Part shown: piece after piece, positions 8,505 through 53,385 of the stretch | How the letters are laid out: each line of letters starts with the position of its first letter | Position numbering within the stretch: the first letter of the stretch is position 1 | Source: Geoalkalibacter subterraneus | GTDB taxonomy: Bacteria > Desulfobacterota > Desulfuromonadia > Desulfuromonadales > Geoalkalibacteraceae | Assembly: GCF_000827125.1 (NCBI RefSeq) | Contig: NZ_CP010311.1 | Span: 496,001 to 560,000 of the forward strand | Direction of reading: 5' to 3' | Length of the DNA: 64,000 bases | The notes under the pieces: model-generated | What the model was told of the DNA's origin: nothing | Seen by the model: only the letters and a program-made list of their open reading frames with translations | The model's database searches: none | Translations under genes and position numbers: made by a program

Positions 8505-8939
8505 TCAGTCGTCGTGGGACTCGACCTGCTCGGTCCCTTCGTTGAGCACCATGCCCACTTTCAGCAGCATGGCGGCCAGACCCTTCTGGCCGTACGGACG
8601 CGCGGGGTGTGCCCCCCACACCGGTCCGGGCCAGGCCGCATCGCTTTCGTAGCGCACAATATGATGCAGGTGCAGCTGCGGGACCTGGTTGCCGAGGGCG
8701 GCGATGTTGATCTTGTCGGCTCCGAACACGGTATGCAGCCGTTCGGCCAGAAAGGACGACTCCTGTAGCAGGGCGTGCTGGTCGTCGGTGCTGAGCTCAA
8801 AGATTTCACGCACACCCTCACGGCGGGGAACCAGGATGAACCAGGGGTAGTTGGCATCGTTCATCAGCAGCAGGCGGCACAGGGGGAAGTCCCCCAGCAT
8901 GTGGGTGTCGGCCTCCAGCCGCGGATCGAGTTCAAACAT
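8505..8939 (-). CDS. HIT-domain protein
   Basis: Histidine-triad nucleotide-binding family protein of 144 residues. The signature VPQLHLHHIVRY has histidines at 90, 92 and 93, so the classic H-x-H-x-H spacing is altered at the third position, a variant I believe also occurs in proteobacterial HIT proteins. HIT enzymes hydrolyse or transfer nucleotides from phosphoramidates or dinucleoside polyphosphates. The N-terminal half (ANYPWFILVPRREGVREI) fits the fold. It lies downstream of the sigma-54 regulator on the same strand, separated by 209 bases that contain a strong inverted repeat. Confidence 0.85.
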   Translation of the reverse strand: MFELDPRLEADTHMLGDFPLCRLLLMNDANYPWFILVPRREGVREIFELSTDDQHALLQESSFLAERLHTVFGADKINIAALGNQVPQLHLHHIVRYESDAAWPGPVWGAHPARPYGQKGLAAMLLKVGMVLNEGTEQVESHDD

Positions 8940-28861: not shown

Positions 28862-28998
28862 TCCTCATCTTTCCCGCGTTCGCCTTAAAAAGGCATCAGC
28901 AAGTAGGAGTTAGCACCTGACGTTCGCACGGGCCTTGCGGCGTTGACAAACCGGTTGCTGTGGTTTCACAGGGCCTTTCCCTCCACCACTCTGGATAA
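28862..28998 (-). promoter_or_regulatory. SAM-I (S-box) riboswitch aptamer upstream of metX
   Basis: Reading leftward it shows the S-box core in order: CCAGAGTGGTGGAGGGA, GGCCCTGTGAAACCACAGCA, ACCGG, GGTGCTAACTCCT and finally GAAAGATGAGG closing the P1 helix. The GAG internal loop, the kink-turn region and the conserved GCAACC-type junction are all recognisable. With the terminator at 28792-28828 it forms a transcription-attenuation switch for metX. Confidence 0.93.
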
Positions 28999-29064
28999 AG
29001 ACGTTGCGCTATGCGGTTGTGAGCCGAAACTGTAACGAAAGAATTCCGGGCTGTCAATGCAGAT

Positions 29065-31616: not shown

Positions 31617-31727
31617 TCCTCATCTCTCCCTTGATTCAGGGCAGGAATTGGCACCAGTTGCTCGTTTGAAAAAAACGAACCGGTTGCCGTGGCTTCACAG
31701 GGCCTTTCCCTCCACCACTCTGGATGA
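31617..31727 (-). promoter_or_regulatory. SAM-I (S-box) riboswitch aptamer upstream of the PLP enzymes
   Basis: Reading leftward: CCAGAGTGGTGGAGGGA, GGCCCTGTGAAGCCACGGCA, ACCGG, GGTGCCAATTCCTGC and GAGAGATGAGG. The core is nearly the same as in the metX copy at 28862, but the P3/P4 region differs: here a T-rich helix (CGTTTTTTTCAAACG) stands where the metX copy has a GC-rich one. It is 70 bases downstream of the cysK stop. Confidence 0.93.
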
Positions 31728-31796
31728 TAACGCAGCTTAAAATTTACGCTTATGGTAGAGCATATAAAAACCAATGTCAAACTAAAACCGTCAAGT

Positions 31797-48884: not shown

Positions 48885-48981
48885 CGCAGAGACAGCAGAG
48901 ATAGCTGAGTACGCAGAGTTTTCTATTTTGTTTCTTTTGGCACTCTCTGCGTGTTCTTTACCCTCTGCGCCTCTCCGTTAA
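48885..48981. repeat. Palindromic repeat between hisD and hisB (CGCAGAG type)
   Basis: The left side TTAACGCAGAGACAGCAGAG, continuing to GTACGCAGAG, mirrors the right side CTCTCTGCGTG, then CCCTCTGCGCCTCTCCGTTAA. The centre is T-rich. The repeat begins at the hisD stop codon. It is related in style to, but different in sequence from, the ACAGAG repeats at 30226 and 50974. Confidence 0.7.
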
Positions 48982-49011
48982 TTGCTTTTTAACGCCTATA
49001 CGGGGGAAATT

Positions 49012-50234: not shown

Positions 50235-50965
50235 TGCTGGTTATTCCCGCGATTGATCTGAAGGAAGGGCAGTGCGTCCGCCTTGAGCAGGGGCTGATGG
50301 ATAAGGCCACCGTGTACGGCAAGGATCCCGCCGCGCAGGCGTTGGCCTGGCAGGAGCAGGGTGCCGAGCTGCTGCATATCGTCGACTTGGATGGCGCCTT
50401 TGCCGGCGTCCCGAAAAACCGCGAGGCGATCAGCTCCATTGTCGCCGCGCTGGATATCCCCGCCCAGATCGGCGGCGGAATCCGCGACCTTGACACCATC
50501 GCGGCCTACCTGGACCTCGGTATCAAGCGGGTGATCCTCGGCACTGTCGCCAAGGAGAACCCCGAGTTGGTCAAGGAAGCCTGCCGCCGGTTCCCCGGCT
50601 CCATCGTGGTCGGTATCGACGCCAAGGATGGTTTCGTCGCGGTGCGGGGCTGGGCCGACGTTACGGAAAAAAAGGCGAGCGAACTGGCAAAGGAGATGGA
50701 AGGCTACGGCGTCGAGGCGATCATCTACACCGACATCGCCCGCGACGGCATGATGCAGGGTCCCAACCTGAAAACCACCGGCGAACTGGCGCGCTCCATC
50801 AGCATCCCGGTCATCGCCTCGGGCGGCATCTCCCGCCTGCAGGACATCCAGGACCTGATGCAGCTTGAAGCGGACGGAGTCGTAGGCGCCATTACCGGCA
50901 AAGCGATTTACAGCGGGGCTCTCAATCTGCGCGAAGCCATTGCCCTGACGCGCGGTGGGGTATAG
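50234..50965 (+). CDS. hisA: ProFAR isomerase (HisA)
   Basis: 243 residues. (Beta/alpha)8 barrel that opens the ribose ring of Pro[21 protein letters not shown] carries the first catalytic aspartate (D8), and [15 protein letters not shown] carries the second. [10 protein letters not shown] and [15 protein letters not shown] are the phosphate-binding loops. ATG 50234 has GGAG seven bases upstream; the GTG three bases earlier is less well placed. A palindromic repeat lies between hisA and hisF. Confidence 0.96.
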
Positions 50966-50973
50966 AAAAAGAT

Positions 50974-51146
50974 TGAACCACCCGTTCGCTCTGCTCACTC
51001 GAGGGCACAGAGAAGCACAGAGAAAAATCTGAAATCCTTTGTGGGGGATGTCTCAAAGTTTTCATGCACTGGGGGAAAAGATTTTTGGTTTTGAAAAAAA
51101 TCTCTTCGGTTTTTCTCTGTGATCTCTGTGTGCTCTGTGGTTCAAG
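50974..51146. repeat. Palindromic repeat between hisA and hisF (ACAGAG type, with insertion)
   Basis: GAACCAC (50975-50981) and GTGGTTC (51137-51143) frame the element. Inner arms GGCACAGAGAAGCACAGAGA and TCTCTGTGATCTCTGTGTGC are near complements, like the copy at 30226. The left arm has about 23 extra bases after GAACCAC (CGTTCGCTCTGCTCACTCGA and a few more) that the right arm lacks. The centre at 51050-51110 is A/T-rich. Confidence 0.72.
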
Positions 51147-51203
51147 ATTTTTATTCCCGCTCCCCTTGCGGATCACCGGCATCGTGACTAAGTTGAGAAA
51201 ATT

Positions 51204-51971
51204 ATGCTGACCAAACGAATCATTCCGTGTCTGGACGTCAAAGATGGACGCGTGGTCAAAGGGGTGCAGTTTCTGGAGTTGCGCGATGCAGGCGATCCGG
51301 TGGAAGCCGCCGAAGCCTACGATGCTCAGGGCGCCGACGAGTTGACCTTTCTCGACATCACCGCGTCGAGCGACAAGCGTGGCATCATCCTCGATGTGGT
51401 GGCGCGCACCGCCGAGCGGGTGTTCATGCCACTGACCGTCGGCGGCGGGGTGCGCGAGATCGCCGATATCCGCAACCTGCTCAACGCCGGCGCCGACAAG
51501 GTTTCCATCAACACGGCCGCGGTGCATCGTCCGGAGTTCGTCAAAGACGCGGCGGAACGTTTCGGTTCCCAGTGTATCGTGGTGGCCATCGACGCGCGTC
51601 GCATACCGGACAGCGAGCCTTTGGCGTGGGAAGTCTATACCCATGGCGGGCGCAACCCCACCGGCATCGATGTGCTGGAGTGGGCGTCGCGCATGGAAAA
51701 CTACGGTGCAGGCGAGATTTTGCTGACTTCCATGGACAAGGACGGCACCAAAGACGGCTACGATATCGCCCTGACCCGCGCGGTCAGCGACCGGGTGGGC
51801 ATTCCGGTGATCGCTTCGGGGGGCGTGGGCAACCTGGAGCATATCCGCGAAGGGCTGGTGGAAGGCGGTGCCAGCGCGGCGCTGGCGGCCAGCATCTTCC
51901 ACTTCCGCGAGTACACTATCGGCGAGTGCAAGCAGTACCTGCGCGACCAGGGTGTGCCGGTGCGTTTATAA
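51204..51971 (+). CDS. hisF: Imidazole glycerol phosphate synthase, cyclase subunit
   Basis: 255 residues. Cyclises the HisH-ammonia adduct to imidazole glycerol phosphate and AICAR. The start [20 protein letters not shown] includes catalytic D11; the second aspartate is in [35 protein letters not shown] and [12 protein letters not shown] are phosphate sites. It is followed directly by an array of 7-base repeats that separates it from hisIE. Confidence 0.97.
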
Positions 51972-51976
51972 TTCTA

Positions 51977-52105
51977 TGAGGCGTGAGGCGTGAGGCGTGA
52001 GGCGTGAGGCGTGAGGCGTGAGGCGTGAGGCGTGAGGCGTGAGGCGTGAGGCGTGAGGCGTGAGGCGTGAGGCGTGAGGCGTGAGGCGTGAGGCGTGAGG
52101 CGTGA
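51977..52105. repeat. Heptanucleotide tandem repeat, 18 perfect copies
   Basis: TGAGGCG repeated 18 times without a change, plus a final TGA (129 bases). It fills the hisF-hisIE gap almost entirely, from six bases after the hisF stop to 13 bases before the hisIE ATG. Because 7 is not a multiple of 3, every frame contains TGA once per 21 bases. Perfect identity suggests recent expansion or slippage. Confidence 0.97.
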
Positions 52106-52117
52106 AAGGTTTATCAA

Positions 52118-52810
52118 ATGTCACTGATTGAGCAGTTGAAATTCGACGACAACGGCCTGATCCCCGCCATCACTCGTGATGCGGATAACGGCGAAGTGCT
52201 GATGATGGCCTATATGAACGCCGAGGCGGTTGAAAAAACGCTGAAAACCGGTAAGGTTCATTACTTTTCGCGCTCCCGCCGCAAGCTTTGGATGAAGGGT
52301 GAAACTTCCGGGCATGTGCAGACGGTGCGTGAGATTCGTTTTGATTGTGACGAGGACTGCCTCTTGATCGACGTTGAACAGCAGGGCGCGGCCTGTCACA
52401 CCGGTCACCGCTCCTGTTTCTATCGTCGCTGGCAGGACGATGCGGCGCTGACCGAGGGAGAAAAGGCCGCCGACCCCATGCAGGCCTATGCCCGCGAGGA
52501 TATTCTCAATGCGGTCTACCACGTCATCCAGGAACGCCGCCGCAACCCGTCGGAGAAGTCCTATGTGGCGTCTCTGTTTGGCAAGGGGCTCGACAAGATT
52601 CTCGGCAAGATCGGCGAGGAAGCGACGGAGACGGCAGTCGCGGGCAAGGGCGGCGATAAGGACCAGGTGGTGTATGAGACTGCCGACCTGTTCTTCCACA
52701 CCCTGGTCCTGCTTGGTTACTATGATATCCCGCCGGAGCGCATCTATGACGAGCTGCGCCGCCGCTTCGGCATGTCGGGGATCGAGGAGAAACAGAGCCG
52801 CACTAAATAG
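52118..52810 (+). CDS. hisIE: Phosphoribosyl-AMP cyclohydrolase / phosphoribosyl-ATP pyrophosphohydrolase fusion
   Basis: 230 residues. Residues 1 to about 115 are HisI, with zinc/magnesium motif [20 protein letters not shown] followed by [10 protein letters not shown]. Residues about 125-225 are HisE, an all-alpha NTP-pyrophosphatase fold ([38 protein letters not shown]). The fusion performs steps 2 and 3 of the pathway. The Shine-Dalgarno site is poor (AAAGGTTTATCAA), and the heptamer array lies just upstream, so translation may depend on the repeat region or on coupling. Confidence 0.96.
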
Positions 52811-52861
52811 CGAGCTGTGGTCTTCCGCGGCCCGCAAACAGGCATGGCAAGAATGGCCCTT

Positions 52862-52896
52862 GGGGTGTCGCTGCGGCGGTCGCCCCCTTTTCCGTT
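52862..52896 (+). terminator. Possible weak terminator after hisIE
   Basis: GGGGTG (52862-52867) can pair with CGCCCC (52881-52886), followed by CTTTTCCGTTTT. The stem is only six pairs with one G-U. It would mark the end of the his operon before yqeY. Confidence 0.35.
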
Positions 52897-52938
52897 TTCG
52901 GCCTTTCACCCTTAATCTTTTCAGGAAGGATTTGACCG

Positions 52939-53385
52939 ATGAGTCTGACCGAGCAGTTGAATGCCGCTATGAAAGAGGCGATGAAGGCCAGGGACAGCCT
53001 GCGGCTGGGAACGATCCGCATGATCCGCTCGGCCATTCAGAACCGCGAAATCGAGGAGAAAGGCGCCCTGGACGATCAGGCCGTAATCGGCGTGCTGTCC
53101 ACGCTTGCCAAGCAGCGGCGCGATTCCATCGACGCTTTTCGCGACAGCGGCCGAACCGATCTGGCGGAGAAGGAAGAGCGGGAGTTGGAGGTGATCCAGG
53201 AATTTCTGCCGCAGCAGCTCGACGAGGCGCAGATCGAAGCCATTATCGAAGAGGCGGTCGCGCAGACCGGTGCCGAATCGCCGCGGGATATGGGGAAGGT
53301 GATGAAGATTGTCGTTCCCCGTACCACCGGCCGTGCTGACGGCCGCCTGGTGAGCGAAAAGGTCAAGCAACGTCTGAGCCGCTGA
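52939..53385 (+). CDS. GatB/YqeY domain protein
   Basis: 148 residues. The start MSLTEQLNAAMKEAMKARDS and the motif VIQEFLPQQLDEAQIEAIIE define the YqeY family, which resembles the tRNA-binding tail of GatB. DMGKVMKIVVPRTTGRADGR is the usual C-terminal end. Function is unproven; a link to tRNA-dependent amidation or translation is assumed. In many bacteria yqeY lies between rpsU and dnaG; here rpsU is absent but dnaG and rpoD follow three genes on. AGGAAGGA precedes the ATG. Confidence 0.92.
   Translation: MSLTEQLNAAMKEAMKARDSLRLGTIRMIRSAIQNREIEEKGALDDQAVIGVLSTLAKQRRDSIDAFRDSGRTDLAEKEERELEVIQEFLPQQLDEAQIEAIIEEAVAQTGAESPRDMGKVMKIVVPRTTGRADGRLVSEKVKQRLSR

Follow-up and report, generated by a model that had tools for sequence, protein, structure and literature searches.

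A perfect TGAGGCG heptamer array in the hisF-hisIE gap of Geoalkalibacter subterraneus and the dispersed repeats related to it

The array and its surroundings in the his operon

A stretch of 64,000 nucleotides from Geoalkalibacter subterraneus (assembly GCF_000827125.1, contig NZ_CP010311.1, positions 496,001 to 560,000), referred to below as the window, carries in its his operon 18 perfect tandem units of the heptamer TGAGGCG, which lie between hisF and hisIE. Both genes are full-length open frames, one on each side of the array. The array is probably a dispersed heptamer repeat in a one-armed copy that slippage has expanded at a permissive and near-neutral position. That it is real, at the position given in an initial annotation of the window, is borne out by Tandem Repeats Finder (51977-52105, period 7, 18.4 copies, 100% matches, 0% indels), and the statement in the same annotation that it fills the gap is nearly correct, the units taking up 126 of the 146 nt. 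A pattern of two TGAGGCG units with at most one mismatch gave 17 overlapping matches in the window, every one inside the array, whereas 100 shuffled windows gave a mean of 0.06 matches and a maximum of 1, so chance is excluded. The features concerned are as follows.

51977..52102, plus strand: 18 perfect tandem TGAGGCG units (read from the sequence; Tandem Repeats Finder; shuffles)
52103..52109, plus strand: degenerate 19th unit, TGAAAGG (read from the sequence)
51976..51978, plus strand: ATG that overlaps the first TGA of the array and opens a 5-codon frame
51204..51971, plus strand: hisF, the upstream gene, with its TAA stop at 51969-51971, 5 nt before the array (open reading frame, ORF; tblastn to relatives)
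52118..52810, plus strand: hisIE, the downstream gene, with an ATG start (ORF; HisIE matches in relatives)
51972..52117, plus strand: hisF-hisIE junction, where relatives have similar, different or no repeats
50966..51152, unstranded: CTCTGTG 9-mer-type element with inverted arms in the hisA-hisF gap (inverted repeats I2-I4; matches G000:C1:547115 and 547124, G000 being this genome)
48885..49011, unstranded: CAGAG/CTCTG-type element in the hisD-hisB gap (read from the sequence)

The overlap of GTG and TGA that the initial annotation noted in each unit is present: each GTG from 51983 to 52088 starts a frame of five codons, the TGA stop of which overlaps a later GTG, and the last two of these frames end at 52125-52127 and 52129-52131, past the hisIE ATG and out of frame with it. 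The AAAGG at 52105-52109 sits inside the TGAAAGG unit and, judging by its 8-nt distance from the hisIE ATG, is probably the ribosome-binding sequence of that gene. The description of this site as poor holds in part: hisIE has AAAGG where many relatives have GGAG or GAGG. The array is compatible with the operon, as it begins right after the hisF stop and its last unit seems to supply the hisIE ribosome site; with a TGA in every frame, translation is unable to run on into hisIE. Since the array follows the hisF stop and lies outside hisIE, its copy number is also unable to switch hisIE by frame, and all that counts with respect to frame is whether the number of units is odd or even. Phase variation in the sense of copy number shifting a gene's reading frame is thus not what is seen here. 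There was no match to a promoter in a search of 50900-52950 for the sigma-70 type, and no terminator match within the hisF-hisIE gap.

Other copies of the heptamer

Three arrays of at least three perfect TGAGGCG units occur in the assembly analysed (3.72 Mb, 2 contigs), so that the genome scan suggested by the initial annotation returned two more, of 4 and 3 units. On both strands the pattern of two units with at most one mismatch gave 45 overlapping matches, against 1 for the backward pattern, and these represent the hisF-hisIE array and 17 further sites, most of them gene gaps by our own ORF calling; the sequence of each was inspected. Several are two-armed, with TGAGGNG units followed by NCCTCAC units (e.g. 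loci L192, L193, L194, L197 and L206). One-armed expanded variants are also found, at L200 (about 1440-1580; TGAGGAG x7 and CTTGGGG x5) and at L203 (about 1490-1640; ten perfect units of TGATGCG). The hisF-hisIE array, itself without a second arm, is the longest member of this family in its genome and not a lone object. A strict scan for tandem periods by lag found few segments, and a looser one over 265 gene gaps in sampled stretches found period 7 in two, one being the hisF-hisIE array, and period 9 in four.

Arrays of at least three units were found in 6 of 97 relatives (7 of 98 genomes with this one included) and in none with the backward control. One of them, genome G024, belongs to another family of the order and has 61 overlapping TGAGGCG matches, among them a second, independent 18-unit array (L230, about 8800-8930). 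The looser lag scan over sampled gene gaps of G024 gave period 7 in 9 of 222, or 7 without two gaps in stretches that had been sampled over known arrays, and the other lags from 4 to 13 never gave more than one. The claim that the expansion at hisF-hisIE is recent, made in the initial annotation from the identity of the copies, gains support in that 18 identical units exceed the longest (14) of 84 arrays from other phyla and that no such array is found at the junction in any of five genomes of the same family, with the caveat that G024 has one equally long elsewhere.

Those 84 arrays, each with between 3 and 14 units, come from 80 listed loci out of at least 119 stretches with three or more units among named genome contigs, a lower bound as the search pattern skips arrays with a T seven bases before them. 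Among the phyla indicated by the titles of the 80 are Chloroflexota, Proteobacteria, Verrucomicrobiota, Planctomycetota, Nitrospirota, Actinomycetota and Bacteroidota. Within 150 nt, a facing arm of C-rich units was present downstream of 12 of 81 arrays and upstream of none of 82, arrays with less than 60 nt on the side concerned being left out, compared with 10 of 1465 random windows. The same polarity is seen in the strict hairpin, with a G-rich 5' arm and a C-rich 3' arm, which occurs in 9 of 58 genomes (this one included), the opposite arrangement occurring in 0 of 58. Eight viral contigs (L247-L254) also have at least four TGAGGCG units, which may lie in host flanking sequence.

With respect to genes, again by our own ORF calling, 22 of the 84 arrays lie in codirectional gaps in the sense orientation and 9 in the antisense, 11 in convergent and 3 in divergent gaps and 20 in antisense open frames, 19 remaining unclassified (16 at locus edges, 3 without flanking genes). 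Background gaps in the same loci number 167 codirectional, 48 convergent and 57 divergent, and divergent gaps look under-used by the arrays. Where a sense gene lies 5' of the array, the array is within 50 nt of its stop in 30 of 33 cases and itself supplies the stop codon in 14 of the 33. In the 11 convergent gaps the array is no more than 50 nt from the stop of the sense gene in 10 cases, and from that of the other gene in only 3. A sense-strand bias (22 against 9) is not claimed, because the 20 arrays in antisense open frames may be an artefact of ORF calling.

The heptamer may also be part of something wider. Of 297 genomes in the phylum, 57 have four units of the motif CGTRANN, which was framed post hoc, against 19 for the backward motif, with 762 overlapping matches against 85; other heptamers therefore occur too. 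In the places listed, genomes tend to have their own last two bases: CGTGAGG here and CGTGAGC, CGTGAAC, CGTGATC and CGTRAAT elsewhere in the phylum. It is possible, if doubtful, that TGAGGCG is one dialect of a widely recurring CGTRANN family with genome-specific last bases. For TGAGG units, on which this was tested, the arms are of one polarity and the arrays lie at gene ends, and such elements and unrelated repeat hairpins replace each other at a fixed operon junction. Were there such a wider family, a common mechanism making or copying 7-nt units would be implied, rather than independent accidents of slippage.

The hisF-hisIE junction in thirty genomes

A match to HisIE was present in all but one of 58 genomes (57), and the junction was read in 30 of these, this one and 29 relatives, each with both a hisF and a hisIE; many of the other matched genomes have hisI and hisE separate. 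Element types were assigned by eye. A TGAGG type is present in five of the 30 (this genome, G016, G024, G051 and G056), with two arms in G016, G024 and G056 and one short arm in G051. Non-TGAGG repeats occupy the junction in 15 of the 29 relatives: a CTCTGTG/CAGAG type in six genomes, a GTAGGGGCG type in four genomes of a single genus, a CACCAAG type in two, and other repeats in three, one of these with CCCCTAG/GGGCAAT heptamers. The remaining ten junctions are element-free, with an overlap of the genes or a spacer of at most 34 nt. Among the relatives the spacer ranges from -14 (overlap) to 243 nt, so that for this lineage distance is no critical factor.

On a tree of HisF and HisIE at least 11 changes of type are required over the 30 tips, compared with a mean of 18 and a lowest value of 12 in 2000 shuffles, and the TGAGG type needs five changes for five genomes. 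Junction types thus partly follow the tree, yet turn over often. Strict TGAGG hairpins elsewhere in the genome, none of them being the junction itself, occur in 8 of the 30, and all five genomes with a TGAGG junction are among these, an overlap with a chance probability of 56/142506 = 4e-4 if kinship is ignored and the types, assigned by eye, are taken as given. For TGAGG it therefore fits that the junction holds the commonest repeat family of its genome. The holders of a GTAGGGGCG junction have 34 to 65 copies on one strand, but these four are of one genus, and G010, G014 and G025 are equally rich (56, 44 and 37 on one strand) and have another element or none there. The CTCTGTG pool, present in 29 of 58 genomes, is too widespread for the idea to be tested.

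Some observations concern the form of the elements in these operons. At the junctions of G040 (L180) and G029 (L182) a CACCAAG hairpin seemingly carries a second hairpin in its loop (of GGAGAGG type in G040), which looks like the insertion of one repeat into another. The hisA-hisF gap of G018 (L174) has about six tandem copies of a unit of about 27 nt (GCGCAACCAAAGGGCGCAATGAATT...), and heptamer-armed elements lie in the same gap of G029 (L182; GGCNAAA type) and G013 (L178; CCTGAAA type). In this genome two further long gaps of the his operon, 50966-51203 and 48885-49011, hold 8-9-mer repeats of CTCTGTG/CAGAG type with facing arms, and the hisA-hisF element at 50966..51152 is another repeat family with the same general habit.

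Origin of the array and comparable repeats

On the explanation favoured above, the source of the array would be the dispersed intergenic family of TGAGGNG variants found in this genome and its relatives, often as hairpins whose 5' arm is made of G-rich and whose 3' arm is made of C-rich units. At hisF-hisIE a single arm would have grown to 18 identical units by slippage, to which perfect tandem repeats are prone, or by unequal exchange, at a junction that would tolerate, and over evolution swap, repeats of several unrelated families. The array looks tolerated rather than tuned. The array itself, its family and the variety at the junction are observed; the slippage is deduced from one genome per species, and the two-armed origin and near-neutrality for HisIE are likewise deduced rather than seen. 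Several points weigh on the other side: no intermediate between a two-armed element and an array was seen, and loss of the 3' arm is a guess; with the pattern used, 69 of the 81 arrays from other phyla have no facing arm and may never have had two; several nodes of the tree have low support, so that ancestral retention and repeated arrival are indistinguishable; and, given the predicted self-fold of its RNA, the array may act as a hairpin.

In a different explanation, selection maintains an intercistronic RNA hairpin that protects the hisF mRNA or sets the hisF:hisIE ratio, the repeat families being interchangeable means to this and the 18-unit array a self-folding substitute. The array RNA is predicted to fold at -59.2 kcal/mol with a z of -7.6 (-49.8 kcal/mol without lonely pairs), through short GCGU self-pairs by a reading of the fold that is trusted little, and the junctions of 14 of the 29 relatives reach z < -2 from quite different sequences. 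Against this, the element-free third of the junctions (10 of 30) implies that the gene order there needs no hairpin, the long repeat-holding junctions of G056, G002, G018 and G049 fall short of z -2, and such repeats form hairpins at other sites too. A maintained hairpin is accordingly regarded as rather unlikely, and the suggestion in the initial annotation that the array affects mRNA structure upstream of hisIE is upheld as to a predicted fold, whereas ten relatives do with an overlap or a plain spacer of 15-34 nt and no element. No Rfam family reached threshold over the array. A G-quadruplex was considered and rejected, as the unit has GG only and the quadruplex option gave an unchanged fold.

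That copy number tunes HisIE was the central proposal of the initial annotation: slippage would alter the number of units and thereby the level of HisIE, with spacing, mRNA structure or step-by-step re-initiation as the means. The GTGA overlaps and GAGG motifs in each unit, the proneness of perfect repeats to slippage and a folded RNA that, to judge from the fold, should lengthen with copy number all speak for this. However, the array lies outside both genes, hisIE is never in its frame and only parity matters, the relatives' spacers vary widely and no promoter-like match lies in the gap, so the proposal has nothing beyond plausibility and is considered unlikely. The comparison of the junction across genomes warns against taking a conspicuous repeat within an operon for a regulatory switch.

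A candidate site for a protein that binds DNA or RNA, such as has been put forward for the paired repeats of Geobacter metallireducens and for the TAACTGA repeats discussed below, would be in keeping with the single polarity of facing arms within and beyond the order and with the CGTRANN motif common to units of many genomes. It is very unlikely, given that genome-specific units and swaps with unrelated families at the junction are unlike a conserved regulon site. Although perfect short tandem arrays are error-prone, an assembly or sequencing artefact in the copy number is scarcely credible with shorter and equally long TGAGGCG arrays in other genomes, a length of 126 nt that fits ordinary read lengths and an assembly of two contigs.

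Dispersed heptamers are known from cyanobacteria as STRR (short tandemly repeated repetitive) sequences, with other units and in another phylum. Rehm et al. 2015 (PMC4692102) refer to three such Calothrix heptanucleotides and themselves describe GGGAATC (GGGNATC) repeats in Xanthomonas and GGGGA(C/T)T in Nostoc, the GGGAATC repeats having GGG tracts and forming G-quadruplexes in vitro, with four units preferred. The hisF-hisIE array is of the Xanthomonas kind without being a GGGAATC repeat. A 7-nt unit is repeated in tandem at many sites, mostly between genes; convergent array pairs occur in the TGAGGCG family, although the hisF-hisIE array is one-armed; and arrays lie near sense-strand stops both in Xanthomonas, according to PMC4692102, and here (5 nt after the hisF TAA, and in the cross-phylum set). 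The Xanthomonas unit rotated to CGGGAAT is one base off the CGTGAAT units of other genomes, whereas TGAGGCG has GG only and is spread over many phyla.

In MacGregor 2015 (PMC4679880), TAACTGA repeats of marine Beggiatoaceae, many of them just upstream of start codons, resemble TGAGGCG in being heptamers with sense-direction stops in all frames and in a suggested distant horizontal spread. They differ in their unit, in being direct repeats (with one indirect case) and in that up to six copies are not predicted to fold. For G. metallireducens, PMC2700814 describes paired tandem octa- and heptanucleotide elements on opposite strands, of other units (GTTGCTYN, TCTCCGTS, MTYCTGA, GGACCGG), and a proB-proA gap with different multicopy sequences in G. 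metallireducens and G. sulfurreducens, a difference of the same kind as the variety at hisF-hisIE. Heptamers are reported to be over-represented among the simple repeats of many bacteria, for which polymerase slippage is only a hypothesis (PMC4692102, PMC4679880). Repeats of this kind are already on record for Xanthomonas, Nostoc, Beggiatoaceae and Geobacter. TGAGGCG or its sister units in tandem, searched as exact 14-mers, were not found in the literature, most subscription journals lying outside the search. The single 7-mer occurs in 2,232 papers, and in rotated form it appears once in a Xanthomonas typing paper, within a primer and not as a repeat. With differing elements at one fixed operon site in 30 genomes, questions of origin and tolerance become open to comparative tests.

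Repetitive extragenic palindromic (REP) elements with RAYT transposases are dispersed intergenic hairpins that have a GTAG or GGAG head, a short palindrome and a RAYT gene nearby. The GTAGGGGCG junction family in G004 and G005 is REP-like in starting with GTAG, and G001, G003, G004 and G005 have an abundant GTAG-headed GGGGCG...CGCCC hairpin family (34 to 65 matches when one strand is counted) that looks REP-like. The TGAGG family is unlike REP in that it has no GTAG head, the array has no palindrome, and no member lies beside ten Y1 transposase loci examined. A RAYT/Y1 transposase was rejected as the mobiliser, since 51 of 58 genomes have matches, whether or not they have TGAGG hairpins. This genome has 26 Y1 matches, among them groups of copies with identical scores on both contigs, and ten of these loci (20 kb) gave 0 TGAGG-type matches against a background of 1.0 per 20 kb, which is weak evidence.

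Elsewhere in the window Rfam places two S-adenosylmethionine (SAM) riboswitches on the minus strand, at 28862-29001 and 31617-31730, about 2.6 kb apart.
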